Of a stretch of 64,000 bases of DNA, positions 23,358 through 42,097 are shown piece after piece (within the stretch, counting starts at the first letter, position 1; each line of letters begins with the position of its first letter). The stretch lies in the NCBI GenBank assembly GCA_029247205.1, contig JAQWLT010000009.1:1-64000 (forward strand). Reading direction: 5' to 3'. The translations under genes and the position numbers were made by a program. Origin of the DNA: Phycisphaerales bacterium (GTDB taxonomy: Bacteria > Planctomycetota > Phycisphaerae > Phycisphaerales > SM1A02). Below the pieces are notes generated by a model. It had not been told where the DNA came from, made no database searches, and was given only the letters and a program-made list of their open reading frames with translations.

Positions 23358-23438
23358 TGATGTGGATCCTGTGAACAGTATGTATATGAAGGTTGGGACT
23401 GATCAGCACGCCAAGGCGTGCTCAAAACCGGAAGGCGA

Positions 23439-23726: not shown

Positions 23727-23734
23727 CAATTGGA

Positions 23735-23740
23735 TAGTCT
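23735..23740 (+). promoter_or_regulatory. -10-like TAGTCT, leaderless start of copA
   Basis: TAGTCT ends 6 nt before the copA ATG at 23747. Read on the other strand one base along it gives TAGACT for the divergent small frame. Confidence 0.45.
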
Positions 23741-23746
23741 ACCGGC

Positions 23747-25948: not shown

Positions 25949-26010
25949 AGGGGATGCCCGCCTCGACTTCGTCGTAGACTCCGGTGCAGCAATTGCTCAG
26001 GAGCCTCCGC

Positions 26011-27498
26011 ATGCCCCACGCACTGTCCTCGCTTCCCGCGAAGGACTTTGGATACGAAGAAGCAGGTCACCTCCTTCGGCGGGCCGGCTTTGGTGGAACG
26101 CCTCCACAGATTCTGGCCCTCTCCAATATGGGCCTCAACGAGGCCGTCGACCACCTGCTGCTGTGGGAGCGGGTCCCGGACAACTCTTCAGCAACTGCGT
26201 TTCGATCGGACATCATGTATCCGCTCGAACAGTCCCAACGCCAACGGATTCAACGCGCACGCCGCGATGGGGACGAAACTACGCTCGAAGAGTTCCGCAA
26301 TGCACGCCAAGCACGCCAGCGTGAAGATCGCCGGCAGATACGGGACATGCAAAGCTGGTGGCTTGAGCGGCTTGTCGAAACTCCCCGCCCTCTGCTTGAG
26401 AAACTCACACTCTTTTGGCACGGGCACTTTGCCACTGGGTATCGCGCCGTCGAAGACAGCTGGCACATGATGTTGCAGAACGATATGTTCCGCGCCAATG
26501 CAGGTGGGAACTTCAAGAACGATCTCGTCCACGGAATTATCCGTGATCCAGCGATGATCAAGTACCTCAACAACAATCAGAACACGAAGCAGGCTCCAAA
26601 CGAGAATCTTGCCCGCGAACTCATGGAACTGTTCACTCTTGGCGTCGGCAACGGATACACCGAGAACGACATCAAGGATGGCGCACGTGCCTTGACAGGC
26701 TTGAACTATCGAGACGATGAGTTCGCGTTTAATCAACGCAACCACGACTCAAGCGGGAAACGCATCTTTGGCCGCAGCGGCCAATTCGACGGTGCCGACT
26801 TTGTAGAACTCATCTTTCAACGCCCTTCGGCTGCTTGGTTCACGCCATGGAAATTGCATCGTTACTTCGTCGACGACTCGATGCAGACCGATGGCGATAT
26901 CAAGAAAGCTGTCAATCGGATGAGCCGGACATTTAAGCAGCACAACTGGGAAGTTCGCCCCATGTTGCGTGAGCTCTTCCGATCTAAGTGGTTCTATGAG
27001 CCGGTCAACAGGCGTTCACTCATCAAAAGTCCAGTGCAACTCACCGTTGAAGCCATTCGATCGCTCAACACGCCCGCACGAAGTATCAGCCGACTCAACC
27101 AGGCCTGCGGAATCATGGGGCAGGAACTCTTCCACCCCCCGAGTGTCAAGGGGTGGGAAGGCGGCCGCAAGTGGATCAACACATCCACACTCTTTGTTCG
27201 AGAAAACCTCTTGCTCTACTTAATGACCGGCCGTGACCCCGGCGCCAAGTCGTGGGAGTCGGGTTCAGGCGGATGGAGTGCGGAGCCAATCATTGCTCAC
27301 CTTCGTGGCTTACCCGGGCGCGACGAACCTGCCGACATTGTCACCTACCTCTCACGCCTGACACTCGGTTTCTCACCGACTGATGGACGACTTGAGCAGT
27401 GGATCACGCTCGCAAGGGATCGCGAACCGATCAATAACGAAACTCTTATTCAGTTGCTCTCTCTCATGACAGCCTCGCCCGAATACCAACTCTGCTAG
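26011..27498 (+). CDS. DUF1800 domain protein
   Basis: 495 residues. N-terminal AGHLLRRAGFGGTPPQILAL and then KLTLFWHGHFATGYRAVED, MLQNDMFRANAGGNFKNDLVHGIIRDPAMIKYLNNNQNTKQAPNENLARELMELFTLGVGNGYTENDI (quoted in pieces as motif run 150-225), and the C-terminal SPEYQLC are typical DUF1800. These proteins nearly always precede a DUF1501 gene in planctomycetes, as here; their biochemical function is not established. No signal peptide is obvious. The ATG at 26011 has AGGAG 7 nt upstream and is preferred to a GTG at 25984. The gene follows copA by 62 bp. Confidence 0.92.
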   Translation: MPHALSSLPAKDFGYEEAGHLLRRAGFGGTPPQILALSNMGLNEAVDHLLLWERVPDNSSATAFRSDIMYPLEQSQRQRIQRARRDGDETTLEEFRNARQARQREDRRQIRDMQSWWLERLVETPRPLLEKLTLFWHGHFATGYRAVEDSWHMMLQNDMFRANAGGNFKNDLVHGIIRDPAMIKYLNNNQNTKQAPNENLARELMELFTLGVGNGYTENDIKDGARALTGLNYRDDEFAFNQRNHDSSGKRIFGRSGQFDGADFVELIFQRPSAAWFTPWKLHRYFVDDSMQTDGDIKKAVNRMSRTFKQHNWEVRPMLRELFRSKWFYEPVNRRSLIKSPVQLTVEAIRSLNTPARSISRLNQACGIMGQELFHPPSVKGWEGGRKWINTSTLFVRENLLLYLMTGRDPGAKSWESGSGGWSAEPIIAHLRGLPGRDEPADIVTYLSRLTLGFSPTDGRLEQWITLARDREPINNETLIQLLSLMTASPEYQLC

Positions 27499-27533
27499 CC
27501 ACCCGACCCACGTGCTTATTCCTGGAATCTGCA

Positions 27534-28808
27534 ATGACTGAACGAACACCTTGGACTCGACGACACTTTCTTCAGCGAGGCACAGCCTTTGCCAGCCTGG
27601 CGACAACCGCCCCGCTCTTCATCCAGCAAGCGAGCCGAGCGATGTCGCTTCCCACCCACTCGCTGCTCACCTCACTCGCCGGTGTACCTCAGGACCATGT
27701 GCTTGTTGTGGTTCAACTTGGCGGCGGAAATGACGGACTCAATACCGTCGTACCCTACGGCTCAGCCGAGTACTACAAGAAGCGACCACGCATTGCGATC
27801 GCCGCCCCAGGAGGGGGCAATGATGCTGCGCTGACCATTCCAGGCGCCGACGGGCTCGGCCTGCACCCTGCATTCTCTGGCATGCGGGAACTGATGGATG
27901 ACGGAGTTGGGTGCATCGTGCAAGGCATTGGGTATCCCAATCCAAATCGTTCGCACTTTTCATCGATGGATATCTGGCACACCGCCGACACGAATGGCCG
28001 AGACAATGGATGGATTGGCCGTTACTTCGACAATTCCTGCGGCGGCACACCGATTCCCACCGCGGGCATTTCACTGGGCAATGCAGCCCCCTTGGCAATG
28101 CAAGGCGATCAGTCAATGCCGGTGAGCTTTGAGACGCCAGACCTGTACCGTTGGATGGGTGAAGATCTCGGCGATGACATCGGACGCACCTATCGCACGA
28201 TGCCACTTCGCTCTGCTGCGGGAGAGGATGACAACCTCGCCTTTCTCAAACGCACAACCATGGATGCGCAGTTGTCATCTGACCAAGTTCGCAAGGCCGC
28301 AGCGATGTCTCCGCTCGTGCAGTGGCCCGGCGGCGATCTGGCCACACAACTTCGCATGGTGGCGGCGATGATTCGCTCGAATATGCCGACGCGGGTGTAC
28401 TACGTGACGCTTGGCGGATTCGACACGCATGCCAATCAGCAAGGATCGCACCAACGATTGCTTCGGCAAGTTGGCGATTCTCTGCTTGCATTCAACAAGG
28501 AACTGAAGGCCCAAGACAACGATGGCCGCGTACTCACCATGGTGTTCTCAGAGTTTGGTCGCCGCGTGGGCGAGAATGGCTCGGGCGGAACCGACCATGG
28601 AACAGCCGCGCCGATGTATCTCGTTGGCCCCATGGTGAAGCCAGGCGTACTTGGAACACACCCGAGCTTGTCTCGCCTGGACAATGGCGACTTGCAGCAC
28701 ACCGCTGACTTCCGGCAGGTTTATGCAGCTGTTCTCAAGAACTGGATGGGCGCTGACCCCGATGTCATTCTTCGCAAACACTGGAACCCGGCGCCAGTGC
28801 TCCGGTAG
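27534..28808 (+). CDS. DUF1501 protein with Tat signal
   Basis: 424 residues, alkaline-phosphatase/sulfatase-like superfamily. The N-terminus WTRRHFLQRGTAFASLATTA is a twin-arginine signal peptide, so it is exported folded through Tat; a tatA gene is present near 60.2 kb. Conserved features: VVVQLGGGNDGLNTVVPYG (metal-binding Asp), GVGCIVQGIGYPNPNRSHFSSMDIWHTA, YVTLGGFDTHANQ and SEFGRRVGENGSGGTDHGTAAPMYLVG. It pairs with the DUF1800 gene 35 bp upstream. The pair is abundant in planctomycetes; a role on extracellular polymers has been guessed, but no reaction is known. Confidence 0.92.
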   Translation: MTERTPWTRRHFLQRGTAFASLATTAPLFIQQASRAMSLPTHSLLTSLAGVPQDHVLVVVQLGGGNDGLNTVVPYGSAEYYKKRPRIAIAAPGGGNDAALTIPGADGLGLHPAFSGMRELMDDGVGCIVQGIGYPNPNRSHFSSMDIWHTADTNGRDNGWIGRYFDNSCGGTPIPTAGISLGNAAPLAMQGDQSMPVSFETPDLYRWMGEDLGDDIGRTYRTMPLRSAAGEDDNLAFLKRTTMDAQLSSDQVRKAAAMSPLVQWPGGDLATQLRMVAAMIRSNMPTRVYYVTLGGFDTHANQQGSHQRLLRQVGDSLLAFNKELKAQDNDGRVLTMVFSEFGRRVGENGSGGTDHGTAAPMYLVGPMVKPGVLGTHPSLSRLDNGDLQHTADFRQVYAAVLKNWMGADPDVILRKHWNPAPVLR

Positions 28809-28828
28809 CCTGATGTATTGTGCACATC

Positions 28829-29143
28829 ATGAATAGACTCATTCACTTCGCTCTGGCCATCATCATCGCGTTGCTCTCTCTAGGCTGCGAAGGAAAACCA
28901 CCACCTCGCGAACAAGCCAAGATAGGTGATCGCGTCGTATTGCCGGTCTCAGGTATGACGTGCAGCGGATGTGAAAGTGCAGTCAATCAGGGCGTGATGA
29001 CATGCCCAATGGTCAACGCTACTGAAGCATCCGCAACCGATGAAGAAGTTGTGTTGTGGGTCAAGCCTGGCAGCGATCTTGGCGCCGTCAAAGCGAAGAT
29101 CAACTCGCTTGGCTTTGTCGTAGAGCCTGACGCGACGAATTGA
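28829..29143 (+). CDS. Exported heavy-metal-associated (HMA) domain protein
   Basis: 104 residues. A hydrophobic N-terminus (FALAIIIALLSLGC) ends in a lipobox-like LSLGC, so it is probably a lipoprotein. The mature domain has the metal motif SGMTCSGCESAVNQGVM, then CPMVNATEASATDEEVVLWV and INSLGFVVEP: a complete HMA beta-alpha-beta fold with an extra Cys (TCPM) where most copies have no Cys. MerP and periplasmic copper chaperones share this plan. It follows the DUF1501 gene by about 20 bp and lies 3 kb downstream of copA on the same strand, so it may carry copper or another soft metal outside the cytoplasm. An in-frame GTG at 28820 is an alternative start. Confidence 0.82.
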   Translation: MNRLIHFALAIIIALLSLGCEGKPPPREQAKIGDRVVLPVSGMTCSGCESAVNQGVMTCPMVNATEASATDEEVVLWVKPGSDLGAVKAKINSLGFVVEPDATN

Positions 29144-29247: not shown

Positions 29248-31821
29248 ATGTTGACAGGTCTATTGCTCGGACTGGTTCTGCCCGCCGCCATGCCGACGGC
29301 AACGCTCGACGGCGATCTACTGCAACTGCGTGAAGTACGAGCCGCCTCGCCAGACGTGCGGTTCGTATCGGTCCGGCAAGGTCGCGAAGTCACGGTCAAT
29401 GCACCAAGCCTGCACATCAGCCGAGGAGCAGTACACGATGGGACCGTACTGCTCTTCACCAATGCAGACGGCCTCAGCCAGGGCATCAAACTCGGCAATA
29501 CTGGCACCATGCGTTTCGTGCATGGCCAGCAAGACGAGGGCCAACTGCAATTGACGACGCTTGAGCGAGCGGCCGCAACCATGCCCACCGATGCTCCAGA
29601 ATTCTGCGGTGTCTCTGCCCCAACCAGCCCAAGTCGACCGCCCCAAGGCTCGCGTCAATTACAAACGGCTGCGGGCGTCCGCATTGCCACACTCGCGATC
29701 GACGCCGACCAGTCCTACATCGAGCTCTTTGGCGGTGATGAAGAAGCCGCCATCGCTGGCATCACTGCGCAGATTGCTGGCGTATCCGCCATCTATGAAC
29801 GAGACCTTGGCATTCGTCTGGAACTGTCCTTCGTACGACTCTGGCCTGACGGCGGCGAGCCCTTTGAGGCAACCAACCTCAGCGGCTTTCGTGACTACTG
29901 GCAAGACGAGCAAGATCCCACCCCCTACAACCTCATTCATCTCTTTAGTGGACGTCGTGACACCTCATACGGCGGGGTGGCCTATCTCGCGACTGCTTGC
30001 AACCAAGCCGCCTACGGCATCAGTGCCTTTCTCACTGGCAGCATCCCAACAGACCCGGCTCTACCCGACCTCGACGCCTGGGACATCACAGTGGTTGCCC
30101 ACGAAATGGGTCACAACCTCGGCACCTATCACACGCATGACGGTTATGAGCCGGTGATCGACGACTGCGGCAATGGCGTGCCTGCACCCCGTAGCACGAT
30201 CATGAGTTACTGCCATGTCCATCAGGGCGGCGTACTGAACCTCGACCAACGCGTGCATGCACGCGTACAAGATGTCATCCTTGAACTCAATCCAGAGGGG
30301 GACTGCCTTCCCTTTGATTGCAATGAAAATGGTGACGCCGACGCAGACGATATCGCATTGGGAACAAGTGACGATGTCAACACCGATGGCATTCCGGATG
30401 AGTGCCAAGACTGCAACGGCAATGGCACGCTCGACCCGCAAGACATTGCCGATACCACGTCGCAAGATGCCGATTCAAATGGCGTCCCTGATGAGTGTCA
30501 ACCAGACTGCAACGGCAATGGTCTTCCAGACGCATGGGATGTCGCCGAATTGCTCTCAGACGATGTCAATGGCAATCGAGTCCCAGACTCGTGCGAGCCC
30601 GACTGCGACGCCAATGGAGTCATTGACTTTACTGACATCCAACTCGATCACTCACTCGACGAGAATCGTGATGGCATCCGCGACGACTGTCTAACGTGCT
30701 GGTCCAGCAGCCTACCCGAGTGGTTCCTCTATGGCGGCACGAATAACATTCTCGCAATTGCTCAAGATGGTTCGCTTCGGGAGTATCTCGGCAGCAGTGG
30801 CGTACTCATCGACACAGTCGATGCGTCGAGCATGGGCGCTGTACCACTGTCACTCTGCCCGCTCACTATCGGGACATTAACCCACCCGTATAGCTCCCGC
30901 GGCACCATGTTGGTCGGCTTTGATGACGGCACCGTGCGAGGCTGGGAAGCCGGACTCGTTGACCCTCCCATCGACTTCAACCTCGACGGAATGCAGGAGG
31001 TCCGAGCAATGGTGGTGACACCAAACGGGTACCTGCTGATGGCGGATACGGTCGCTAACACAATCATGGCTTACCGACTAAGCAGCAACACTCTTCCAGA
31101 ATTGTTGATCGGCTCTGGACCGGGCGGCGTGAACAATCCAATGGACATGCTGGTGCTCGGCGACAAGTTGCTGGTGGTTTCTCACGCTCAGCAAGTACGA
31201 CGCTTCAACGTCCACACTGGTGCCTTCCTCGATGTACTCATTGAAGACCCGGGTATCAATGGCGCCACCGCCATTGCGTTGCTGCCCGATGGCGACCTTG
31301 GCATCACCTCGCCACTGAGAAATGTTGTGCAGCGGTACGACGCCGACACCGGGTTCCCCCATGGGAGCTTCACCGATGAATACTCGTTGAACGAACCAAC
31401 CGACATCATCTCGCTCGGCACGCAGCACATGCTGATACCGAAAGCTGGATCGTCCTACGCCAGACTGGTCGAGTATGACCAAACTGGCCGATACATCAGA
31501 TCACTTGTCCGCGGCGACTTTGGATTGACCAGCCCCACTGCCCTGGCCATTCGTGGCGCGAACTCGCGTGACTGCAATGGAAACGAAATCCCTGACCTAT
31601 GCGAGATCGATAATGGCGGTGACGCCAACGGCGACGGAGTTCTCGACGACTGCGAGTGCACGAGCGACATCACGCTGGACGGTCTGGTCGGCGTAAACGA
31701 TCTGCTCGCCATCATTGACACCTGGGACAACATGGGTGGCCCGGAGGATATTGACGGCTCGGGCACGGTTGATAGTGGTGATCTCTTGATGATTCTGGAC
31801 AGCTGGGGTTGGTGCGAGTGA
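29248..31821 (+). CDS. Secreted metzincin-type metallopeptidase with dockerin-like C-terminus
   Basis: 857 residues, signal peptide (LLLGLVLPAAM). Catalytic zinc motif HEMGHNLGTYH at 285-295 and a Met-turn STIMSYC about 35 residues later define a reprolysin/M12B-like metzincin. Then come four Cys-containing calcium repeats (DCNENGDADADDI, DCNGNGTLDPQDI, DCNGNGLPDAWDV, DCDANGVIDFTDI; thrombospondin-type-3-like), an NHL-like beta-propeller of about 270 residues, another DCNGNEIPDLCE repeat and a terminal dockerin-like pair (DITLDGLVGVNDLLAIIDTW, DIDGSGTVDSGDLLMILDSWGWC). Strong Shine-Dalgarno. Likely degrades extracellular or prey proteins while held at the surface through its C-terminus. Confidence 0.87.
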   Translation: MLTGLLLGLVLPAAMPTATLDGDLLQLREVRAASPDVRFVSVRQGREVTVNAPSLHISRGAVHDGTVLLFTNADGLSQGIKLGNTGTMRFVHGQQDEGQLQLTTLERAAATMPTDAPEFCGVSAPTSPSRPPQGSRQLQTAAGVRIATLAIDADQSYIELFGGDEEAAIAGITAQIAGVSAIYERDLGIRLELSFVRLWPDGGEPFEATNLSGFRDYWQDEQDPTPYNLIHLFSGRRDTSYGGVAYLATACNQAAYGISAFLTGSIPTDPALPDLDAWDITVVAHEMGHNLGTYHTHDGYEPVIDDCGNGVPAPRSTIMSYCHVHQGGVLNLDQRVHARVQDVILELNPEGDCLPFDCNENGDADADDIALGTSDDVNTDGIPDECQDCNGNGTLDPQDIADTTSQDADSNGVPDECQPDCNGNGLPDAWDVAELLSDDVNGNRVPDSCEPDCDANGVIDFTDIQLDHSLDENRDGIRDDCLTCWSSSLPEWFLYGGTNNILAIAQDGSLREYLGSSGVLIDTVDASSMGAVPLSLCPLTIGTLTHPYSSRGTMLVGFDDGTVRGWEAGLVDPPIDFNLDGMQEVRAMVVTPNGYLLMADTVANTIMAYRLSSNTLPELLIGSGPGGVNNPMDMLVLGDKLLVVSHAQQVRRFNVHTGAFLDVLIEDPGINGATAIALLPDGDLGITSPLRNVVQRYDADTGFPHGSFTDEYSLNEPTDIISLGTQHMLIPKAGSSYARLVEYDQTGRYIRSLVRGDFGLTSPTALAIRGANSRDCNGNEIPDLCEIDNGGDANGDGVLDDCECTSDITLDGLVGVNDLLAIIDTWDNMGGPEDIDGSGTVDSGDLLMILDSWGWCE

Positions 31822-31919: not shown

Positions 31920-31925
31920 TATCCT
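31920..31925 (+). promoter_or_regulatory. -10-like TATCCT, leaderless start of the NHL operon
   Basis: TATCCT ends 6 nt before the ATG at 31932; no Shine-Dalgarno precedes this gene. Confidence 0.5.
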
Positions 31926-31931
31926 GCATCA

Positions 31932-33740
31932 ATGCCGATCACACCACTACTGATTGCGATACCACTTCTGTTGCCGGCCGAACTCGGTCGGTGGATAGAG
32001 ACGCACGACAATCTTGGTGGCGTACGCGGCGTTGCGGCGATGCCGACCAGTGGTGTTGCCATCTTGGACGGCGATCGCGAAGCCGTCCTGCTCCAGTCCC
32101 AGAACAATACTACGAGACTGGATCTCAGCCAATTCCTACACCAGCCACAAGGCTTATCTGTCGCAGCAGACGGCCAACTGTACGTTGCTGACACCGGGCA
32201 TCATTCAATCATGTTCTTCGACCAAGACGGCCGCATGCTCGGCGGATTTGGGGGCCGGGGCGAAGATGAATACCGACTGCTTGAACCACACGACGTGTGC
32301 GTCGGTCCAACATTTGTAGCCGTTGCGGATACGGGCAATAACCGCATTCAGATCTATCAGCCGGGCGGCGCGTATATACAGTCCATCGAAGGCCCTCCTG
32401 GTGATCCCATGCGGCGACCCGAAGGAATTACGATCGACTCCCAGAATCGAATCTGGGTCGCTGATACCCAGAACCACTGCATACGGTGTTTCACTTCCAC
32501 CGGGACCCCGGTGCATCGCATCGGCTCATGGGGCACCTTCCCTGGGCAATTCATGGAACCGAGCGGTATCGATGCTGCCGAAGACTATGTCATCGTCACT
32601 GATCGACTGAACCATCGAGTACAGGTGTTGGACATATCCACTGGCGTGGTAAATGAGTCGTGGGGCATGCACTCGTTTCTTCCTCGCCAAGGCGAAGGAC
32701 GCGTGCACTACCCCGCCGACGTCGCCGTCTTGGCCCACGGCGACATCGTTGTTGCAGAACCATTCGAAGAGCGGATGCAACGGTTTGGTGTAACTGGAAT
32801 CGAGATTGACAAGCCAACACCAAGCCCGCCGAGCGTGCAATCGCACTTTGGACCGGTCGCCGCCACCGATGGGCGGTTCTTCTGTACGTGGGAACCTGAA
32901 CTTCGGGCCATTCACCTCTTCGATCTTGATCGCCGCACACCGCTTCGGCTCAGCACATTCGGTACACCCGGCACCGCCCCAGGCCAACTGGGAGATCTCT
33001 CGGCATTGGCCATCGATGCAGATAGCAAACAACTGTGGGCCGTCGACGCAACCAATGCAAGAGTGCATCAATGGACGTTCAATCCACCACCACCAGACAA
33101 GCCACGCTTCGACCCTTCGATGGCAACACTGACCCGCTCTATCCCGCTGCCGCAAGCAGGGCCAGGCGATCTGATTCCATCTGGCGATCGTTTGCTCTTT
33201 CTCGATCGAAACCAGGCAGTTGCCTGGGACCTCAATGACGACGGTCTGCATACGCAGGTCGACCTCAACCTAGGCCGCGATCCAATCACTGGTATTGCAG
33301 TCGTTGATCAGACGACAGGCGAACAGCGATTTGCCACATTGGATGCACTCAACAAAATCATTCAACTCCATGGCACATGGCCACACCAAGGCGAGAATGG
33401 GAATTCAATTTCATTACACGAATTGCACGACCCCGTCGACATCGCTCGACTCTCAGACAATTCCATCGTGGTCGTAGATCGTGCGGGCCATCGCGTGCAT
33501 CGCTTCGCGGCTGATGGCACTGCACTCGCCGCATGGGGCACACGAGGCGTGAAACACGGACAACTGTGGAGACCCGCGGCAGTCGTCGTCGATCATCAGG
33601 ACCGGGTGATCGTGCTGGATCACGGCAATCACCGAGCTCAAATGTTCAAGCCAGATGGAACGTGGATCATGACCTTTGGCGCCGGCCGCGCCTGGACGAC
33701 AATTCCAGCGGCCCAGACAAGTGAAACGGAGTCCAATTGA
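31932..33740 (+). CDS. NHL-repeat beta-propeller protein
   Basis: 602 residues. After a short hydrophobic N-terminus (LLIAIPLLLPAELG, a marginal signal peptide) the chain is built from NHL repeats: LSVAADGQLYVADTGHHSIMFFDQDG, VAVADTGNNRIQIYQPGG, GITIDSQNRIWVADTQNHCIRCF, IVTDRLNHRVQVLD, SIVVVDRAGHRVHRFAADG and VIVLDHGNHRAQMFKPDG. Ten or more repeats would make one or two six-bladed propellers, typically binding platforms. Its TGA overlaps the ATG of the YtkA-like gene by one base, which in turn overlaps the peroxidase gene, so the three are probably made together. Confidence 0.87.
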   Translation: MPITPLLIAIPLLLPAELGRWIETHDNLGGVRGVAAMPTSGVAILDGDREAVLLQSQNNTTRLDLSQFLHQPQGLSVAADGQLYVADTGHHSIMFFDQDGRMLGGFGGRGEDEYRLLEPHDVCVGPTFVAVADTGNNRIQIYQPGGAYIQSIEGPPGDPMRRPEGITIDSQNRIWVADTQNHCIRCFTSTGTPVHRIGSWGTFPGQFMEPSGIDAAEDYVIVTDRLNHRVQVLDISTGVVNESWGMHSFLPRQGEGRVHYPADVAVLAHGDIVVAEPFEERMQRFGVTGIEIDKPTPSPPSVQSHFGPVAATDGRFFCTWEPELRAIHLFDLDRRTPLRLSTFGTPGTAPGQLGDLSALAIDADSKQLWAVDATNARVHQWTFNPPPPDKPRFDPSMATLTRSIPLPQAGPGDLIPSGDRLLFLDRNQAVAWDLNDDGLHTQVDLNLGRDPITGIAVVDQTTGEQRFATLDALNKIIQLHGTWPHQGENGNSISLHELHDPVDIARLSDNSIVVVDRAGHRVHRFAADGTALAAWGTRGVKHGQLWRPAAVVVDHQDRVIVLDHGNHRAQMFKPDGTWIMTFGAGRAWTTIPAAQTSETESN

Positions 33741-34156
33741 TGCAACCATTCGCGATTATTGCCCCCATGCTCACTGCAGTTCTGCTCTCGGCTAGCTGTG
33801 CATCACACTCATCAGGCGGATTGAAACAGACCGCCACAACCGAAGATGGCCGCTACCGGGTGACGTGGCAGAAAACGCCACCAAGTGCAATCGAAGCCAA
33901 TCAGTACTTCGAGTTACTTGTCGAGGTTGAAGATCTCAAGACCGCCGAAGATCCACAGGACTTTCGTTTTGATGCCACGATGCCAGCACACCGACATGGC
34001 ATGAACACGATCGTGAACGCAGTCCGATCCGAAGACAACCATTGGGTTATTCAGGACCTCAACTTACACATGCCCGGCGAGTGGGTCATGACCTTTGACG
34101 TGTTCGATGCCAACGGCGTACTACATCGAGCATCGGAAGTCGTGATTCTGAAATGA
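33740..34156 (+). CDS. YtkA-like lipoprotein
   Basis: 138 residues. Signal peptide with a lipobox-like LSASC. The mature domain (YRVTWQKTPPSAIEANQYFELLVEV, FRFDATMPAHRHGMNTIVNAV, LNLHMPGEWVMTFDVFDANG) has the Ig-like pattern of YtkA/FixH-type domains, including the MPAHRHGMN stretch in which His and Met are placed as in copper-binding CopC/PCu(A)C-like proteins. That segment may bind a metal; I infer this from residue types only. Located between an NHL protein and a diheme peroxidase with 1-bp and 4-bp overlaps, so a shared role in periplasmic redox or metal handling is likely. GGAG lies 8 nt before the ATG. Confidence 0.75.
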   Translation: MQPFAIIAPMLTAVLLSASCASHSSGGLKQTATTEDGRYRVTWQKTPPSAIEANQYFELLVEVEDLKTAEDPQDFRFDATMPAHRHGMNTIVNAVRSEDNHWVIQDLNLHMPGEWVMTFDVFDANGVLHRASEVVILK

Positions 34157-35409
34157 CAAGTTCTCGCCTTGCCATTGCTGCATGCGGGTTATTGTTTCTG
34201 CCCGCAGCCGCAGATGAGTTACCAGAATCTTCGCGGCGAACCGCGATCGCGGCCAACTCGCTCACTCCGCCGCCACCAAATCCAACCAATCGGGTTGCCG
34301 ATGAACCAGCCGCTCGGCAGTTGGGCCAAGCGCTCTTCTTCGATCCCAATCTCTCCAGCAATGGCCAGATCTCATGTGCGACATGCCACGACCCATCGAA
34401 GGCCTTTACTGATGAGCGAACCATCGCGAAGGGATTGAAAGCGGGAGTAGTCAACACGCCCACGCTTCTTGGGGCTGCGCATCAGCGGTGGCTCTTTCAT
34501 GACGGGCGAGCGGACACATTGTGGTCTCAGGCACTTACGCCATTGGAAAGTGATCTCGAGATGGGCAGCACACGCACCGATGTCGCCCGCTATATCGCAA
34601 GCAATGCATCACTCAATCGTGCCTACGTTGCAATCTTCGGCCCACTCCCCGACATGGGAGATGAGAAACGATTTCCCGCTGGCGCCAAACCAGATACGCC
34701 CCAGTGGGAAACAATGACATCAAAAGATCAACACGATGTGACCGAGGTCTTTGTCAATATAGGTAAGGCGATCGAAGCGTACGAGCGACAACTCGTGCCC
34801 GGCGAATCGGCCTTTGATAAGTGGGCGAGTTCGCTCGCAGCGGGCGAGCGGGACGACACACTGATGTCAGATGCAGCCCTACGCGGCTTCACGCTCTTTA
34901 CCAATGATGCCGGTTGCACGCAGTGCCACTTTGGACCAATGATCTCCGACTTAGAGTTTCATGATCTATCGCTGCCATCATCAACTCAAACCGAGACACC
35001 ACTGCCGGGCCGAGGGAGTGGGTATCCGACACTCCGAAACAGTGAATTTCGAGCCGACGGACCGTGGAGTGATGCCCCGAAGAGTACGCTGGCCAGAAGA
35101 GCAGCATCGGCGCGGATCGGCACTGAACACTGGGGCGCTGTCCGTACGCCGTCCCTCCGAAATGTTGCAGCCACCGCCCCATACATGCACTCGGGCCAAT
35201 TTGAGACACTCTCGGATGTACTGGCCTTCTACAACACGCTCGAAGGCCAAGTCCGACGGCACCACCACGCTGAAGCAGTCCTGGTGCCCTTAAATCTGAC
35301 CGATCAGCAGCTTTCTGACCTCGAAGCCTTCTTAAGAACGCTCACGGGCACTTTACCGCCAAAAACTCTTTCTATTCCTCCGGTTGGTTACAGCATCCCT
35401 CTACGCTGA
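34153..35409 (+). CDS. Diheme cytochrome c peroxidase / MauG-family protein
   Basis: 418 residues with signal peptide. Two haem-c motifs: CATCH (75-79) and CTQCH (255-259). Family blocks around them are intact: ARQLGQALFFDPNLSSNGQISCATCHDP, NTPTLLGAAHQRWLFHDGRADTLWSQALTPLES, IGKAIEAYERQLV, WGAVRTPSLRNVAATAPYMHSGQFETLSDVLAFYNT. This is the BCCP/MauG superfamily, reducing H2O2 or carrying out long-range protein oxidation in the periplasm. The ATG overlaps the preceding stop (ATGA), so it is translationally coupled to the YtkA-like gene. C-type cytochrome maturation genes are not in the window. Confidence 0.93.
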   Translation: MTSSRLAIAACGLLFLPAAADELPESSRRTAIAANSLTPPPPNPTNRVADEPAARQLGQALFFDPNLSSNGQISCATCHDPSKAFTDERTIAKGLKAGVVNTPTLLGAAHQRWLFHDGRADTLWSQALTPLESDLEMGSTRTDVARYIASNASLNRAYVAIFGPLPDMGDEKRFPAGAKPDTPQWETMTSKDQHDVTEVFVNIGKAIEAYERQLVPGESAFDKWASSLAAGERDDTLMSDAALRGFTLFTNDAGCTQCHFGPMISDLEFHDLSLPSSTQTETPLPGRGSGYPTLRNSEFRADGPWSDAPKSTLARRAASARIGTEHWGAVRTPSLRNVAATAPYMHSGQFETLSDVLAFYNTLEGQVRRHHHAEAVLVPLNLTDQQLSDLEAFLRTLTGTLPPKTLSIPPVGYSIPLR

Positions 35410-35488: not shown

Positions 35489-37693
35489 ATGCTACGCATC
35501 GGCTTAGCGTCAACATTGGCAGTATCGATGGTCGGGCTCGCATCTGCTCATACTGACGATCCGAAAGTAAACGATCGCTTTGGTCCCTACCAAGGCTCAG
35601 GTTGGCAACGAAGTACCGACCAGCCACTCCGCGGGCTCTATGACTCGTTTGGCGACATCACGCTTGAATCTTGGCTCACCCTCGACGACCTCGGCGGCGC
35701 GGAGACCGGCAATGACTGCTGGGGCTATGTGTCACCATCAGGCAAGGAATACGCCATCATCGGCGACTCCAACGGCACCAGTTTCGTGGACATCACCAAC
35801 CCCGCAGCACCGATCATCGTCGAGAAGATCACCGGACCAGGAAGCCTGTGGCGAGACGTCAAGACTTATGGCACCCATGCCTACATAGTCAGCGAAGGCG
35901 GCAGCGGCATTCAGGTTGTCGACATGGTCAATATCGATCTCGGCATCGTCACGCTCGTGAACACGGTGGACACCGGCGGTACGAGCGCTACACACAATGT
36001 CGCAATCAATACAGAAAGTGGCTACCTCTATCGAGTCGGTGGTGGCGACAACGGGCTCCGAATCTATGACCTCAATGCAAGCCCAACCAACCCGCCCTAT
36101 GTCGGGGCGTGGACCTCGAAATATGTGCACGATGTACAGATCGTCACGTACCCAGCAGGCTCGCCCTACGCCGGACGCGAAGTCGCATTCTGCTGCAGCG
36201 GATTCAATGGTGGCTTTAACGAGACCGGACTCTCTATCGTCGATGTGACGAATAAGAGCAATATCTTCATCATTGGTGAGGTACAACACTCCAACAACAA
36301 CTACTCCCACCAGGGATGGCTCACCGAGGACTACCAGTACTTCTATCTCAATGACGAACTTGATGAGCAGAACACTGGCTCGCTAACGACCACTCGAATT
36401 CTGGATGTCAGCAACATCGCCAATCCGATTCAGGTTGGCACATGCACTTCCGGATCAACATCGATCGACCACAATCTCTACATCAAGGGCGACACGATGT
36501 ATCAGGCCAACTATCGCAGTGGCCTGCGTATCTTCGACATCAGCGATCGGCTGAACCCCTCCCAAATTGCATGGTTCGACACATACCCAGGCAGCGAGTC
36601 AGCAAGTTTCAATGGCATCTGGAGCAGTTACCCATACTTCCCAAGCGGAACGATCATTGGCTCTGATCTTGAGCGAGGGCTCTTCGTCTGGTCCATGGAG
36701 GCACCATCGGTCGCAGTCACGCTGCTCGACCCACTTCCTGAACTACTCAATCCTGCAGGCGGCGACTCATTTCGAATTGAAGCCACCCTCATTCCAGATG
36801 CTGAAATCGACTTCACTGAAACCGTCCTACGATGGGACGATGGCAATGGATGGCAAGAAGCATTGATGACCGTCGATACACCCGGAAACCCGGTTGTACT
36901 CCGAGCTACGTTTGGACTCACCGAGTGCGGCAATTCCGTTGAATTCGAAGCCAAAGTGACCGCCGTCGATGGTTTCTCGCTTACCCCCATCAGTGGCACC
37001 TTGCTTTCCGCCAATGAAGTGCTGACGGCGTTCAATGACAACTGCGAAAGCAACACGGGCTGGTCAGTCGAAAATGACTGCACCGATGGACAATGGGATC
37101 GTGGAACACCCGCCGGAACCTGTGATCGCGGCGATCCGTGCACTGACGGCGATGGAAGTGGCCAGTGCTGGCTCACCGACAATGTCACAGGCAATAGCGA
37201 TGTGGATGGTGGACACACCACGCTCATTTCGCCAGTGCTCGATGCAAGCGACAGCAATGCAATACTGCAATACACACGCTGGTACTCCAATAACAATGGC
37301 GGCGCCCCCAATGCGGATGTGTTCATTATTCGAGTATCAGATGATGCTGGTGCGACTTGGACCACCCTCGAAGAAATTGGACCAAGCGGCCCGGAAGCTG
37401 GCGGTGGCTGGTTTACCGTGCAATTCGATATCGCATCGATCGCCGGAATCGAACCAAACAACCAATTGCGATTGTCCTTTGACGCGAGCGACCTTGCCGA
37501 TGGCTCGGTAATCGAAGCGGGCGTTGATGGCATCGTCATCACGTCGATTGACTGCGAGGAATGCACTGGCGATCTTGATGGCAATGGTGTCGTAGACGTC
37601 GAAGACATCCTGCTCGTCATTGCTGGCTTCGGCGACGACTACACCGTCGACGATATCTTGATTGTCTTGGCAGCATTTGGAAACAGTTGCTGA
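35489..37693 (+). CDS. LVIVD-repeat 'choice-of-anchor B' protein with dockerin-like C-terminus
   Basis: 734 residues. Signal peptide (LASTLAVSMVGLASAH). The first 400 residues carry LVIVD-type propeller repeats (YAIIGDSNGTSFVDITNPAAP, TYGTHAYIVSEGGSGIQVVDM, GYLYRVGGGDNGLRIYDLN, LSIVDVTNKSNIFIIGEV), the signature of choice-of-anchor B proteins. A middle beta-rich part follows, then a jelly-roll-like stretch (WDRGTPAGTCDRGDPCTDGDGSGQCWLT, quoted in two parts in homologues; ILQYTRWYSNNNGGAPNADVF) and a dockerin-like end (GDLDGNGVVDVEDILLVIAGFG, then VDDILIVLAAFGNSC). The start at 35489 has GAGGAG 8 nt upstream. Surface-exposed, ligand unknown; lies 79 bp after the peroxidase gene. Confidence 0.87.
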   Translation: MLRIGLASTLAVSMVGLASAHTDDPKVNDRFGPYQGSGWQRSTDQPLRGLYDSFGDITLESWLTLDDLGGAETGNDCWGYVSPSGKEYAIIGDSNGTSFVDITNPAAPIIVEKITGPGSLWRDVKTYGTHAYIVSEGGSGIQVVDMVNIDLGIVTLVNTVDTGGTSATHNVAINTESGYLYRVGGGDNGLRIYDLNASPTNPPYVGAWTSKYVHDVQIVTYPAGSPYAGREVAFCCSGFNGGFNETGLSIVDVTNKSNIFIIGEVQHSNNNYSHQGWLTEDYQYFYLNDELDEQNTGSLTTTRILDVSNIANPIQVGTCTSGSTSIDHNLYIKGDTMYQANYRSGLRIFDISDRLNPSQIAWFDTYPGSESASFNGIWSSYPYFPSGTIIGSDLERGLFVWSMEAPSVAVTLLDPLPELLNPAGGDSFRIEATLIPDAEIDFTETVLRWDDGNGWQEALMTVDTPGNPVVLRATFGLTECGNSVEFEAKVTAVDGFSLTPISGTLLSANEVLTAFNDNCESNTGWSVENDCTDGQWDRGTPAGTCDRGDPCTDGDGSGQCWLTDNVTGNSDVDGGHTTLISPVLDASDSNAILQYTRWYSNNNGGAPNADVFIIRVSDDAGATWTTLEEIGPSGPEAGGGWFTVQFDIASIAGIEPNNQLRLSFDASDLADGSVIEAGVDGIVITSIDCEECTGDLDGNGVVDVEDILLVIAGFGDDYTVDDILIVLAAFGNSC

Positions 37694-37728: not shown

Positions 37729-39669
37729 ATGAGCGGCTGTGGATCGTGTACGTCATGTGGTTCAAAGTGCCAAGGTGGCCCGCCGACTGCTGCGCTTCCA
37801 ACTGATACGCCCCTGCTGGTTTGGGATGGTGACTGCACATTCTGTAGAAGATGGGCCAAACGCCTTCATGCTGTCGCAGGTGACCGTATTGGCTTTGCAC
37901 CCCTACAGGAAGCAGCCCACCACTATCCACACATCTCACAACATGCATTCGAGACGGCGATCCATCTTATTGAGCCCGATGGCACATACACATCCGGTGC
38001 TGAAGCCTTGTTTGCCACGATGGAACGCCTTGGGCTCAGAACTTGGCCCGCGAAGCTCTACCGCACGCTGGCACCCTTTCGAGCGATCTCTGATATGGCC
38101 TATCACTTCACCGCACGGCACCGAAGGGCTGCGGATGTTGCTTGCCGACTATCACTGGGCCGGGTTGAAGTGCCCAGTACGCTGCTTCTGACACGGCGAG
38201 TCTTTCTGCGACTGCTCGGACTGATCTATCTGATTGCGTTTCTGTCCTTCGGAAATCAAGCGATGGGGCTCATTGGCTCACAGGGATTACGACCTGCCGA
38301 TGTCCTCATGAAGCAAGTCGCTGACAGTTCGACCTCTTGGTGGAACTTTCCAACGCTGCAGTGGCTCGGTGGAGACACCGTGCTCTGGACAACATGGGTC
38401 ATTGGCGCAGTGGCGTCGTGCTTACTCATGCTTGGAATTGTTCCGCTCTTCTCATCGCTTGTGTGCTGGGCGATGTACCTCTCGCTCGTCACCGTCGGCA
38501 CAGTCTTCCTGCAGTACCAATGGGACAATCTTCTACTCGAATGCGGACTGCTCGCAATTCTCTGGGCTCCGCTCACATGGCGACTCAATAGCCAACACGC
38601 AAGGCGACCATCTCGACTCGTCCACTGGCTGCTTGTCCTGCTGCTTGCGAGGCTCGTATTCTTTGGTGGGCTCGCAAAGCTGCAAAGCGGTGACCCCACT
38701 TGGGCAGACTGTACCGCACTCTCCTACTACTTTTGGACACAACCTCTTCCATGGTGGCCTGCGTGGATCGCTGCCTCCCTTCCCGTGTGGATCCTGAAAC
38801 TCGCGTGTGCAGGCCTATTCATCATTGAGTTGGGGGCGCCCCTCCTACTCTTCTTACCCCGCGTGCCACGCACAATTGGCGCGATACTCATCGCGGGGCT
38901 CATGCTTGGTATTGCTGCCACGGGGAACTACGGCTTCTTTAACTGGCTTGCCATCGTCTTATGCCTGTGCATGCTCGATGATGCGGTGCTTTTAATGCTT
39001 TGGCCACGAGCGGCGAGAGGCCGCATCGCAGTTGGCTTACGGCCTGCTTCCGGCCCGCTTGTACGCTGGGGGCGACGAGGCGTCTCCGCTGTGTTACTTC
39101 TGCTTGTGCTGGTTTCCATTCGGGAACAAATAACCGTCAGTCGAATCGGCCAACCCATTGCCAGCCTTCAACGAGCGGTGCAGGGGTGGCGACCGGTCGG
39201 ACACTACGGCCTATTTGCAACGATGACCAAGACACGCCCCGAGATCAACATCGAGTGGCGAGATGCTGAGGGCACATGGCATCCCGTGCGATTTCGCTGG
39301 AAACCTGGCCCGCTTCATCGCGTTGGCGGATTTTGCCAACCTGGTATGCCGCGACTTGACTGGCAATTATGGTTCGATGCGTTGACCTATGAAGCGGCAT
39401 TTAATCAAGGTGGGCTCAGGTCAGGACAATTTAATCTTCGTATTACCAATCGCGTCGTGCTTCCGATGTTGCTGCGACAATTAATGGTGCTCGATCCACC
39501 TGTTGTTGCGCTCTTGGAAGAGCCGCCATCATCGACGCCAACTTCACTTCGTTGGCATCTTGATCAATACCGATTCACAACGACAGCGGAGCGAGCCGAG
39601 AGCGGCGACTGGTGGTCAAAGACGCGACTATTCAGTTCGTCTCCGCTGGTGTTGCAGGCCGCACCCTGA
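37729..39669 (+). CDS. DCC thiol-redox domain fused to lipase maturation factor-like membrane protein
   Basis: 646 residues. A Cys-rich leader (five Cys in the first 14 residues) precedes a DCC/DUF393 domain (LLVWDGDCTFCRRWAKRL, residues about 28-150) whose DGDCTFC carries the CxxC-like redox site. From about residue 155 it becomes a lipase maturation factor-like protein with several membrane segments (LGLIYLIAFLSFGNQAMGLIGSQGL, YLSLVTVGTVFLQYQWDNLLLECGLLAILWAPL, LLLARLVFFGGLAKLQSGDPTW) and a C-terminal soluble part with PRLDWQLWFDAL. LMFs assist folding of secreted lipases; the fusion suggests thiol redox is part of it. Its 3' end overlaps the convergent YcjF-like gene by 38 bp. Confidence 0.88.
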   Translation: MSGCGSCTSCGSKCQGGPPTAALPTDTPLLVWDGDCTFCRRWAKRLHAVAGDRIGFAPLQEAAHHYPHISQHAFETAIHLIEPDGTYTSGAEALFATMERLGLRTWPAKLYRTLAPFRAISDMAYHFTARHRRAADVACRLSLGRVEVPSTLLLTRRVFLRLLGLIYLIAFLSFGNQAMGLIGSQGLRPADVLMKQVADSSTSWWNFPTLQWLGGDTVLWTTWVIGAVASCLLMLGIVPLFSSLVCWAMYLSLVTVGTVFLQYQWDNLLLECGLLAILWAPLTWRLNSQHARRPSRLVHWLLVLLLARLVFFGGLAKLQSGDPTWADCTALSYYFWTQPLPWWPAWIAASLPVWILKLACAGLFIIELGAPLLLFLPRVPRTIGAILIAGLMLGIAATGNYGFFNWLAIVLCLCMLDDAVLLMLWPRAARGRIAVGLRPASGPLVRWGRRGVSAVLLLLVLVSIREQITVSRIGQPIASLQRAVQGWRPVGHYGLFATMTKTRPEINIEWRDAEGTWHPVRFRWKPGPLHRVGGFCQPGMPRLDWQLWFDALTYEAAFNQGGLRSGQFNLRITNRVVLPMLLRQLMVLDPPVVALLEEPPSSTPTSLRWHLDQYRFTTTAERAESGDWWSKTRLFSSSPLVLQAAP

Positions 39670-40531
39670 ACACGCGCGCGGCCCGCTCAACCGTTTGTCG
39701 CACACGCAATGCGACCTCATCCGCAGCAGAAGATGCAGCAAATCCTGCCACGCTTCGCTTGGCAAGCGGCATGGGCCTACACACTTGTTGTGTCCAAAGA
39801 CCAAGTCGCGCCGTGAGCGTCGCAGCAATGAGACCTTGCCCACCTGCTGCAGCAACAGCGCCGATGCGAGTGGACACGACGTCGGCGGCGTGCTGCGAAA
39901 GATCGACCGCCACAGCATGCAGAAGGACCATCCGAAGCAAACGAATTGTCCCGATCATTCCAGGTCGGCCGCCATATGCGGCCGCGATACGACGCATCAA
40001 CCGTATGTTTCGCCACGTGCATAACATGGCATCAAGCAGGGCGATGCCAGAAATCGTCACGAGCAACCCGGTCTTCGCTGCCTCTCGGCGAATCTCAGTA
40101 TCAACCGTGCCATCAATGGTGTTGAGAAATGCACTGAGCTTCGTCCGAGCCAATTCCTGATCTCCACGCTGCACAGCTTCATGCCACGCGGCAAGTGGTG
40201 TGTTGTACCGTGACTCATGCGGTAGACGATGAGACCATCGAATGAGTACACGTCGCCCAGCATTTGAGGTGTCTTCGCAAGCAAGTACTGCTCGCACACG
40301 TTCGACTCGCCGAACGGCAAGCCAACCACGGAGTTCACGTCCGATCAACCATGCAACGGCCGCAGCAACGGCCGCGGCAGAAACACCGACAATCCACGCC
40401 CACACAGAGCCAAGTGCAGCCACTCGCTGAACTTCGAGAATTACTTCGGCAATCAACACAACGGCTACCAATGCGGTAATCGCGCCACCAAGCAGCCATA
40501 TGGGGTGTGGAATTCGATGACTTTGGACCAT
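39632..40531 (-). CDS. YcjF/DUF697-type membrane protein
   Basis: 299 residues. Two N-terminal membrane helices (IWLLGGAITALVAVVLIAEVI and VWAWIVGVSAAAVAAAVAWLI) are followed by a soluble helical region and a C-terminal block LLVTISGIALLDAMLCTWRNIRLMRRIAAAYGGRPG, GTIRLLRMVLLHAVAVDLSQHAADVV, TARLGLWTQQVCRPMPL. This order and the 'WRNIRLMRRIAAAYGGRPG' and 'TARLGL...CRPMP' signatures match the UPF0283/YcjF family (DUF697). E. coli YcjF is usually next to the GTPase YcjX; no YcjX is adjacent here. Function unresolved. Overlaps the tail of the DCC-LMF gene. Confidence 0.87.
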   Translation of the reverse strand: MVQSHRIPHPIWLLGGAITALVAVVLIAEVILEVQRVAALGSVWAWIVGVSAAAVAAAVAWLIGRELRGWLAVRRVERVRAVLACEDTSNAGRRVLIRWSHRLPHESRYNTPLAAWHEAVQRGDQELARTKLSAFLNTIDGTVDTEIRREAAKTGLLVTISGIALLDAMLCTWRNIRLMRRIAAAYGGRPGMIGTIRLLRMVLLHAVAVDLSQHAADVVSTRIGAVAAAGGQGLIAATLTARLGLWTQQVCRPMPLAKRSVAGFAASSAADEVALRVRQTVERAARVFRVRPATPAETN

Positions 40532-40738
40532 AAATGCTGGCTTCCATGTCTTCTACGGGACAGTATTGATTGGGAAAGAACCCTTGGAGATTACGCAAAC
40601 CAACCCCTTTCTGTTCACTGAAAGGAATTCTGCAAGATTTCCTGTTCTCGGACACACCCAATGCCGACTTTGTGCGTAGATGGGTGTGAAAGGGCAGTGA
40701 ATGCCCGCACTCCTCTCTTCCTTGTACTGAGCAAAACC

Positions 40739-40954
40739 ATGAAGACTCGAACACCTCACGACTGGACCTGGGATGCTTGGCGAACACGCCTCAGCCGCCT
40801 ACTCGGTCGGACGGAGTATCGATATGACCTCTCCCGTGGTGAAATCCTGCTCGCCACCGGTACCGCTTCCAATGATCTCAAAGAATTGTGGAATTACGGC
40901 TGGACCCCAGGCGAAGCAGCACATGCAATCACGGAGACGCTTGGACTCCGCTAA
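40739..40954 (+). CDS. Small hypothetical protein
   Basis: 71 residues from the ATG at 40739: a Trp-rich N-terminus (HDWTWDAWRTRLSRLLGRTEYRYDL) and a helical C-terminus (ASNDLKELWNYGWTPGEAAHAITETLGL) ending in a UBA- or helix-turn-helix-like Gly-Trp-Thr-Pro-Gly-Glu-Ala-Ala pattern. The composition and regular helix pattern favour a real gene, and a 10-bp stem hairpin 64 bp downstream would terminate it. A start at 40661 would add 26 unlikely residues. No family recognised. Confidence 0.55.
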   Translation: MKTRTPHDWTWDAWRTRLSRLLGRTEYRYDLSRGEILLATGTASNDLKELWNYGWTPGEAAHAITETLGLR

Positions 40955-41017
40955 GAGCGATACTTCAAGCCCCTCAACTGCTCATGCAGTATGGGTTCTC
41001 ACTTGACTGAGCCATAT

Positions 41018-41042
41018 TGGCTTCTGGAGGTGCCAGAAGCCA
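41018..41042. terminator. 10-bp perfect hairpin, probable terminator
   Basis: TGGCTTCTGG (41018-41027) and CCAGAAGCCA (41033-41042) pair over the 5-nt loop AGGTG, after the small 40.7-kb gene. There is no U-run, so it could also be a structured leader element of the following gene. Confidence 0.5.
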
Positions 41043-41183
41043 TACAAGCCATCACCCCCATGGCCCCCCAGCCAATACATCCCCCCTATTCACCACCCTC
41101 TGAACAATCAAAGGGCTGAATTCGCAGAACTCACTTCTTGCATCACCCATGGCAGCCTGTATCCTCGACAGGTGGAGAGAAGC

Positions 41184-41783
41184 ATGTGTCAGCCCCTGAG
41201 AATCCGGGTGTATATCACCGCTGTGGCCGTTGGGATACTTCCCAGCGTCGCCCTCGCTGGTGATCAGAGCGGCGACAGTGGCGACTATGAGCAGTCGATC
41301 TTTGACCTCACGGGCATTGAATACGCTGGAGGCACCCCAGTCAGCCATGGGTCTTTTTTTAAGGTCGCGCCAGATCGCCAGATTATGCGTCTTCGCTGGG
41401 AAAATGTCATTCTTGAGACCTACGCGCACAATGAAGGTACGCCCAACTGGGCCAGTGAGGCCTATTTCGGGATTTCGGCCTTTGACCTCGTGGGTGATGC
41501 CCTCGCCTGGCTCGAGCAGCCCTTTCCAGATAACCATGCCGGCGGGGTCTTCGGGCCGGTCAATGGCGAGGTGAGCCTTGAACTCGCGAATATCTTTACA
41601 GGCCCCAATGGCGATGTGTCTATGCTCACCGCATCAAGTTTCGTAGATGGCTCCGAACTGCCTGCTGGGCACTACCTTGGCGGCAGCCTGATCATTGACT
41701 ACATGGGCATCCCCTCCCCAGGCGGCCTAGCCCTGCTCTCCGCTGCTGCTTGGCGGACTCGGCGACGACGACGAATCGAGTAG
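41184..41783 (+). CDS. Secreted protein with PEP-CTERM-like sorting tail
   Basis: 199 residues. Signal peptide (ITAVAVGILPSVALAG). The C-terminus reads IPSPGGLALLSAAAWRTRRRRRIE: a P-x-P-G-like motif, a short hydrophobic helix and a run of Arg, the tripartite plan of PEP-CTERM/exosortase substrates ('IPAPG-(A/G)-x-A-L-L' type). The mature part (YEQSIFDLTGIEYAGGTPVSHG, GPVNGEVSLELANIFTGPNGDV) has no recognised domain. The ATG at 41184 has GGAG 6 nt upstream. It implies an exosortase elsewhere in the genome; none is in the window. It precedes the feo operon but is separated from it by the Fur-like site. Confidence 0.75.
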   Translation: MCQPLRIRVYITAVAVGILPSVALAGDQSGDSGDYEQSIFDLTGIEYAGGTPVSHGSFFKVAPDRQIMRLRWENVILETYAHNEGTPNWASEAYFGISAFDLVGDALAWLEQPFPDNHAGGVFGPVNGEVSLELANIFTGPNGDVSMLTASSFVDGSELPAGHYLGGSLIIDYMGIPSPGGLALLSAAAWRTRRRRRIE

Positions 41784-41835
41784 AGCAAACCTCTCAAAGA
41801 CCTTGAATCAATCAGTACCACGCGGTACGATTTCT

Positions 41836-41856
41836 TGCTGAGACTCAGTCTCAGCA
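41836..41856 (+). promoter_or_regulatory. Fur-box-like palindrome upstream of feoA
   Basis: Arms TGCTGAGACT (41836-41845) and AGTCTCAGCA (41847-41856) are perfect inverted repeats around a single C. The inner 7-1-7 unit, TGAGACT-C-AGTCTCA, has the spacing of a Fur site (TGATAAT-n-ATTATCA; many Fur sites read TGAGAAT-n-ATTCTCA) and differs from the latter at one symmetric position. It abuts the feoA Shine-Dalgarno (GGAG at 41857-41860). An iron-dependent repressor of the Fur or DtxR/MntR type is the natural reader. Confidence 0.75.
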
Positions 41857-41868
41857 GGAGTACCGCCC

Positions 41869-42087: not shown

Positions 42088-42097
42088 ACCCTGCGAC

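Follow-up and report, generated by a model that had tools for sequence, protein, structure and literature searches.

What does a MauG-like diheme enzyme act on when its gene lies among those of exported beta-propellers and a putative copper carrier? This question is raised by the window studied here, 64,000 nt of a Phycisphaerales bacterium (assembly GCA_029247205.1, contig JAQWLT010000009.1, positions 1 to 64,000 of the forward strand). A first-pass annotation, made from the sequence alone, had described three of its genes as an operon for an NHL propeller, a YtkA-like lipoprotein and a diheme enzyme, whose products could form a periplasmic complex for peroxide removal or for oxidative maturation of a cofactor in a partner protein. 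We found that the set has a fourth member, overlooked in that annotation, about 80 nt downstream of the other three. It encodes a secreted propeller of the choice-of-anchor-B family (hereafter ChoiceB). The four genes very likely form one functional module, and ChoiceB, which lies outside the three genes described, is the likely partner protein if such maturation occurs. The four genes are as follows.

31932-33740, + strand: NHL-repeat propeller protein, 602 aa, exported
33740-34156, + strand: YtkA/CrdA-like lipoprotein, 138 aa, predicted copper carrier
34153-35409, + strand: diheme enzyme of the bacterial cytochrome c peroxidase (bCCP)/MauG superfamily, 418 aa
35489-37693, + strand: the fourth member, a secreted propeller protein of the choice-of-anchor-B (LVIVD) family, 734 aa, which also has a beta-sandwich and a dockerin-like tail

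The first three reading frames, their coordinates and their overlaps are as first annotated. Read from the sequence, the NHL stop codon TGA (33738-33740) shares 1 bp with the YtkA ATG at 33740, and the 4-bp ATGA at 34153-34156 holds both the YtkA stop and the diheme start. The export that had been proposed for all three products is borne out by a short hydrophobic N-terminus on the NHL protein, a lipobox with Cys20 on the YtkA-like protein and a signal peptide on the diheme protein.

A recurrent set of four genes

Gene content was compared in the family and then in the phylum Planctomycetota, the source assembly being 86% complete. The family sample consisted of 61 genomes (the source and 60 relatives; diheme search at E 1e-20), with the YtkA protein in 29 and the diheme protein in 33. 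Throughout the family, barring contig ends, the order is NHL, YtkA, diheme, ChoiceB. The YtkA protein was found in 42 of 294 phylum genomes sampled, and in the 29 loci that were new from this search, all of which were taken, the YtkA gene has a diheme gene within 1.5 kb in 27 and an NHL gene within that distance in 19. ChoiceB was present in 51 of 246 phylum genomes. Both proteins were found in 34 of these; the two genes are at most 5 kb apart in 28 of the 34, and in several of these 28 they are on opposite strands. The other 17 ChoiceB genomes are outside the YtkA-positive list and include four of a sister family; at L205 and L207, the two sister-family loci whose N-termini were printed, the N-terminal His discussed below is kept.

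A scan of genome contigs with ChoiceB as query gave 501 relatives, and we kept the best 80 as loci. The full order NHL-YtkA-diheme-ChoiceB is present in 52 of them, two have the diheme gene without NHL or YtkA genes, and in six the stretch ends too near to the gene. The named organisms are nearly all Planctomycetota or unplaced bacteria and include the complete Poly30 genome; two records labelled Proteobacteria or Bacteroidia may be misfiled bins. Additional ChoiceB copies, tandem or split, follow the diheme gene at L071, L072, L115, L149, L134 and L161.

The three genes first described therefore do recur together across Planctomycetota, and the earlier interpretation stands to that extent and for its copper-type protein (see below); the conserved unit has four genes, not three. 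Two of its other elements fared less well. The overlaps had been taken to fix the ratio of the three proteins, and we found overlaps of 1 or 4 nt between NHL and YtkA genes in 13 of the 24 loci measured and between YtkA and diheme genes in 14 of 24 (automatic starts), so they are frequent but vary among loci. A complex of all three proteins, diheme enzyme included, gained no support, since the diheme gene is sometimes inverted (at L091, genome G026, it is on the opposite strand) or separate.

The NHL and YtkA proteins have a closer tie. In genomes G009, G023 and G033, frame arithmetic shows that NHL and the YtkA match share one open frame of 789-820 codons, and at L167, which is one of the ChoiceB loci without a diheme gene, both profiles match one frame of 811 codons. 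Hence, in-frame fusions in at least four genomes argue that the two proteins would act together, and they are the best evidence for this.

The secreted propeller and its putative metal site

ChoiceB scored 344.1 bits against TIGR04312, above the curated cut-off of 100, which places it in the choice-of-anchor-B family; its only Pfam match was LVIVD. The ATG at 35489 is probably its true start, since GAGGAG lies upstream and two relatives start at the same MLR. In the predicted model (predicted local distance difference test, pLDDT, 89.2), a seven-bladed propeller (about residues 54-408) is accompanied by a beta-sandwich and a dockerin-like tail. The top Foldseek match was the phosphotriesterase of Sphingobium, 5hrm (6.5e-10), and in the VIA list this entry had Z 30.8 over 325 aligned residues at 18% identity, which were the most aligned residues and the highest identity, with Z tied with WD40 domains. 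SBP56 and nitrous-oxide reductase were missing among the fold matches listed, which carries no evidential weight.

Exactly five histidines (21, 169, 214, 274 and 328) are invariant in all 61 rows of the ChoiceB alignment, where the constancy of His21 is by selection, the rows having been chosen by a search that required an N-terminal His. Their positions are as follows.

35549-35551, + strand: His21, predicted first residue after cleavage (ASA/H); His in 79 of 80 loci
35993-35995, + strand: His169, start of blade 3 inner strand; 61 of 61 rows
36128-36130, + strand: His214, start of blade 4 inner strand; 61 of 61 rows
36308-36310, + strand: His274, start of blade 5 inner strand; 61 of 61 rows
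36470-36472, + strand: His328, start of blade 6 inner strand; 61 of 61 rows

The -3/-1 rule for signal cleavage is satisfied in 60 of the 61 rows, and L168 is the one locus of the 80 where the N-terminal His is missing. As a predicted N-terminal residue, it may invite comparison with histidine-brace copper proteins, in which Cu is bound in a T shape by the N-terminal His and a second His. Judging from the model, the side chains of His169, His214, His274 and His328 would face the propeller channel. This pattern of conserved residues suggests that ChoiceB probably carries a metal site; that the metal is copper we consider an even call.

A second setting for the family comes from a plasmid of Pseudoalteromonas xiamenensis (L204:4455-9127), where a ChoiceB gene (464 bits) is head to head with genes for MbnP (153 bits) and MbnH (503 bits). 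Its product has TTFA/HAEHDK at the predicted cleavage site, so an N-terminal His again, and keeps W121, H214, H274, D289-E290 and H328; an AHNV motif resembles the region of H169, and BLAST did not align AHNV to H169. MbnP (TIGR04052) was detected in this record, which served as the positive control, and in none of the 246 phylum genomes, the source assembly included. Hence, as far as gene content indicates, the same propeller family has a copper-type carrier and a diheme enzyme as neighbours in two lineages, with a different carrier in each. One other annotated ChoiceB came out of the plasmid searches.

The partner proteins and the surrounding genes

The lipoprotein scored 21.6 bits against YtkA (PF13115; E 3.6e-4), just under the cut-off of 25.9, and is therefore filed as YtkA/CrdA-like. 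Its family profile matches PDB 9ll2 (E 8.8e-6), and its model (pLDDT 89.1) superposes on Helicobacter CrdA with Z 13.3 for the silver-bound and 13.2 for the apo form (root-mean-square deviation 2.1, 101 residues); the next unrelated entry has Z 9.8, and Foldseek agrees on CrdA. The predicted fold is thus that of a CrdA-type copper protein. Two segments make up the putative copper site.

33980-34006, + strand: MPAHRHGMN (residues 81-89), the first segment
34067-34084, + strand: HMPGEW (residues 110-115), the second segment

In all 46 YtkA rows, M81, P82, H84, H86, G87, M111, G113, W115 and R130 are invariant; C20, D78, H110 and D120 are nearly so (H110 in at least 90%), and M88 is invariant in the 26 rows of alignment A1. 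The proposal that the MPAHRHGMN stretch presents copper is thus strengthened, as a putative site, by the CrdA-type fold and by the invariant M-P-x-H-x-H-G ... M-x-G-x-W pattern. Excerpts of PMC9182242 describe CrdA as a protein without His that has a Met-rich site and binds Cu(II) with micromolar affinity, and excerpts of PMC13344008 name CtaK as the Bacillus YtkA protein and implicate it in assembly of the CuA centre. Because of the predicted fold, these copper roles and the Met frame with added His, the protein is likely to be a copper carrier.

The NHL protein scored 136 bits against Pfam NHL, and its best PDB profile matches were the NHL domains of TRIM71 and Thin. Against ScyF (NF035926) it reached 153.5 bits, under the 350-bit cut-off.

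The diheme protein scored 139 bits against PF03150 (CCP_MauG; cut-off 25.6) and has exactly two CXXCH motifs, which together place it in the bCCP/MauG superfamily; it was the only PF03150 match found in the source assembly. PDB profile matches included 1iqc, 6e1c, bCCPs and MauG, and the profile also reaches hydrazine synthase (5c2v chain C, 8.6e-13). No narrower family claimed it: scores were 141.9 bits for the MauG equivalog (TIGR03791; cut-off 443.85), 137.4 for MbnH (TIGR04039; cut-off 362.85) and 30.1 for hydrazine synthase gamma (NF052341; cut-off 625). Its main sites, with counts from 29 aligned rows, are these.

34375-34389, + strand: CATCH, residues 75-79, N-terminal heme site; C75, C78 and H79 in 29 of 29 rows
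34498-34500, + strand: His116, at the xWDGR Trp position; Trp in 25, Leu in 3 and His in 1 of 29 rows
34915-34929, + strand: CTQCH, residues 255-259, C-terminal heme site; C255, C258 and H259 in 29 of 29 rows
35185-35187, + strand: Met345 (in PYMHSG), a candidate axial ligand for the C-terminal heme; 28 of 29 rows have Met

E136 is also invariant (29 of 29). At the WDGR Trp position, His occurs in the source enzyme only, and three sister lineages have Leu. Met345 aligns with PYMHDG of PDB 6e1c (BthA), and the bCCPs among the matches shown have Phe there. We had considered Met345 as an argument against a MauG-like mechanism and dropped it, as PYMHDG occurs both in 6e1c and in the MbnH-family protein of Pseudoalteromonas. 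MauG itself, as general background, has Tyr294 and Trp93 and a Trp-based bis-Fe(IV) chemistry. Excerpts of PMC12758564, a paper on how hydrazine synthase originated, report that an important Trp of peroxidases and MauG is a His in hydrazine synthase gamma, at a site that is perhaps but not necessarily the counterpart of position 116.

Upstream of the set, the first-pass annotation had placed one leaderless promoter, and the candidate is a single element.

31920-31925, + strand: -10-like TATCCT, whose last base is 7 nt upstream of the NHL ATG; leaderless-promoter candidate

There is no clear ribosome site ahead of this ATG, and TATCCTGC is kept at this place in three same-genus relatives (L061, L062 and L063). 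The fourth relative (L065) has TATGCT and the fifth (L066) has AGGAGG instead, and a scan for sigma-70 patterns gave no promoter pair at the NHL upstream site. The leaderless promoter is thus plausible and in part supported.

The set sits in a larger block (19254-29143 and 37729-44014) with genes for SecA, a CopA-type ATPase, DUF1800 and DUF1501 proteins, an HMA lipoprotein, the four-gene set itself, an LMF1/DCC1 protein and FeoB. The genus retains this block from SecA to FeoB, and two further genera retain most of it; beyond the lineage, only the four genes stay together. Its members are the neighbours common to many four-gene loci (up to 18 of 52), and a Pfam scan of five other recurrent neighbours gave three without a match, one FGE-sulfatase and one ThiG. 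Further copper genes were looked for beside distant four-gene loci and not found. Between the HMA and NHL genes, at 29248-31821, is a gene for a reprolysin-like metalloprotease with a dockerin-like tail; it is missing there in most same-genus relatives examined, and L067 has it without the HMA gene. Downstream of the set, a DUF697 protein (76 bits) is encoded on the - strand at 39632-40531.

A possible maturation cassette and its known counterparts

How might the four proteins work together? With about equal chances of being right or wrong, we propose a cassette that loads copper into a secreted propeller and matures it by oxidation. ChoiceB would carry the metal site, most likely for copper, to which blades 3-6 each contribute one channel-facing His and which the N-terminal His perhaps joins. 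The YtkA/CrdA-like lipoprotein would bring the copper, with the NHL propeller as its docking platform, and the diheme enzyme would use peroxide to oxidise its partner, or the copper site of that partner, during maturation. In the source lineage, the CopA-type ATPase gene upstream of the set was counted in favour of copper. The oxidative maturation once suggested for the three genes thus gains a likely partner in ChoiceB, with the oxidation itself still conjectural; a role of the diheme enzyme as maturase is tentative and falls a little short of an even call.

Several observations weigh against this cassette. Of the 80 ChoiceB loci, 20 lack a diheme gene although their upstream sequence runs to at least 3.5 kb, and all five His persist in each of the 16 ChoiceB rows that are unlinked to the partners; hence, ChoiceB does not need linked partners. 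We looked for a ChoiceB residue peculiar to diheme-linked members, and none was clear: there is no Trp or Tyr column that is kept in these and lost in lone ChoiceB, and so no marked target residue for the diheme enzyme in ChoiceB. W115 of the YtkA-like protein is a Trp in CrdA as well. The nearest solved propeller, 5hrm, is a phosphotriesterase and no known copper enzyme, and only one ChoiceB neighbourhood among those examined is surely non-planctomycete.

The target of the diheme enzyme may instead be the carrier. In such a module, of the MbnP/MbnH type, a Trp of the YtkA-like protein, such as W115, would be oxidised to make or tune a copper site that serves uptake or storage, with ChoiceB as the receiver of copper at the surface. 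YtkA and diheme genes are indeed the tightest pair (27 of 29 loci), MbnP/MbnH fills the same place beside ChoiceB in Pseudoalteromonas while the planctomycete genomes have no MbnP, and excerpts of PMC3621798 describe a copper site with Trp converted to kynurenine in MopE, beside a MauG-like protein. However, W115 aligns with the Trp of CrdA and so may be structural, and the diheme protein is far from the MbnH cut-off (137 bits vs 363); we consider this reading unlikely. That ChoiceB is instead a secreted two-metal hydrolase, to which the other three genes supply metal or are mere neighbours, seems more improbable still. This would suit the rank of 5hrm, whose paper, by its title in the reference list of PMC11656708, deals with a seven-bladed propeller that has a binuclear metal centre, but a redox metal would agree better than a hydrolase with the linkage, seen in two phyla, to a diheme oxidase and a copper-type carrier.

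Removal of peroxide, the other role first suggested, would make the set a periplasmic peroxidase module with the propellers and the YtkA-like protein as scaffold or electron-donor partners. The superfamily of the diheme protein and the bCCPs among its best PDB profile matches agree with this, but ordinary peroxidases do without YtkA, NHL and ChoiceB partners (general knowledge), and the WDGR Trp has given way to His in this enzyme and to Leu in sister lineages. We therefore judge peroxide removal a poor candidate for the main role, with a low probability. A heme-based complex like hydrazine synthase, which according to excerpts of PMC12758564 and PMC12607021 combines a propeller-bearing alpha subunit with a seven-bladed propeller and a gamma subunit that resembles MauG, would account for the profile match to 5c2v chain C (8.6e-13). 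We rejected it as exceedingly improbable, given a gamma score of 30 against a cut-off of 625 and no CXXCH in the NHL protein or ChoiceB, hence no alpha-type heme subunit.

The maturation cassette may extend to the propeller family as a whole, which is apparently unstudied as copper proteins; the phrase "choice-of-anchor B" was not found in the literature searched. In this bolder and rather doubtful proposal, ChoiceB proteins would be unrecognised secreted copper enzymes in which a four-His ring on consecutive blades is completed or capped by the N-terminal His, matured by a YtkA-NHL loader and diheme oxidase in Planctomycetota and by MbnP/MbnH in gammaproteobacteria. If the maturation cassette is right, a common exported family known only by its anchor types would gain a function class, MtoX-SCO1-MauG and MbnP-MbnH would be joined by a third, independent case in which a copper carrier is paired with a diheme MauG-like enzyme, and the question of the diheme-enzyme substrate would become testable in a new system. 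The natural fusion of NHL and copper carrier offers itself for structural work.

Among known systems, the cassette would be analogous to mtoX-SCO1-mauG and to MbnP-MbnH and a member of neither. Excerpts of PMC5739008 describe an mtoX-SCO1/senC-mauG operon in which MtoX, a methanethiol oxidase of the SBP56 family, is a copper propeller; copper on conserved His with four nitrogen ligands is supported there, and tryptophan tryptophylquinone is proposed. This is the closest working analogue, as it too combines a periplasmic propeller with genes for a copper chaperone and a MauG-like protein, whereas here the propeller is of the choice-of-anchor-B family and not SBP56, the carrier is YtkA/CrdA-like and not SCO, and an NHL protein is added. 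No SBP56 protein (PF05694) was found in the source genome. It has a SCO1/SenC protein elsewhere (G000:C25:16814-17224, L216; 41.8 bits), so SCO has not been lost from this genome.

MbnP-MbnH, like MopE-SACCP and CorA-CorB, likewise pairs an exported copper-binding protein with an adjacent diheme MauG-like enzyme, and in Pseudoalteromonas the pair adjoins a ChoiceB gene; here, the diheme protein is under the MbnH cut-off, the 246 planctomycete genomes have no MbnP, and the YtkA-like protein has a predicted CrdA-type fold. The lipoprotein has the same predicted fold as CrdA, and the known proteins CrdA and CtaK have copper-binding or CuA-assembly roles, but CrdA lacks His whereas in the subfamily here MPxHxHG and HM are present and a diheme gene accompanies the lipoprotein gene. 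The Sphingobium TCM1 phosphotriesterase resembles ChoiceB as a seven-bladed propeller; it is a hydrolase of only 18% identity, and the comparison covers the overall fold. Finally, hydrazine synthase of anammox bacteria, also Planctomycetota, combines propeller subunits with a MauG-like diheme subunit, whereas the four-gene set has no alpha-type heme subunit and its diheme protein scores far under that family's cut-off.

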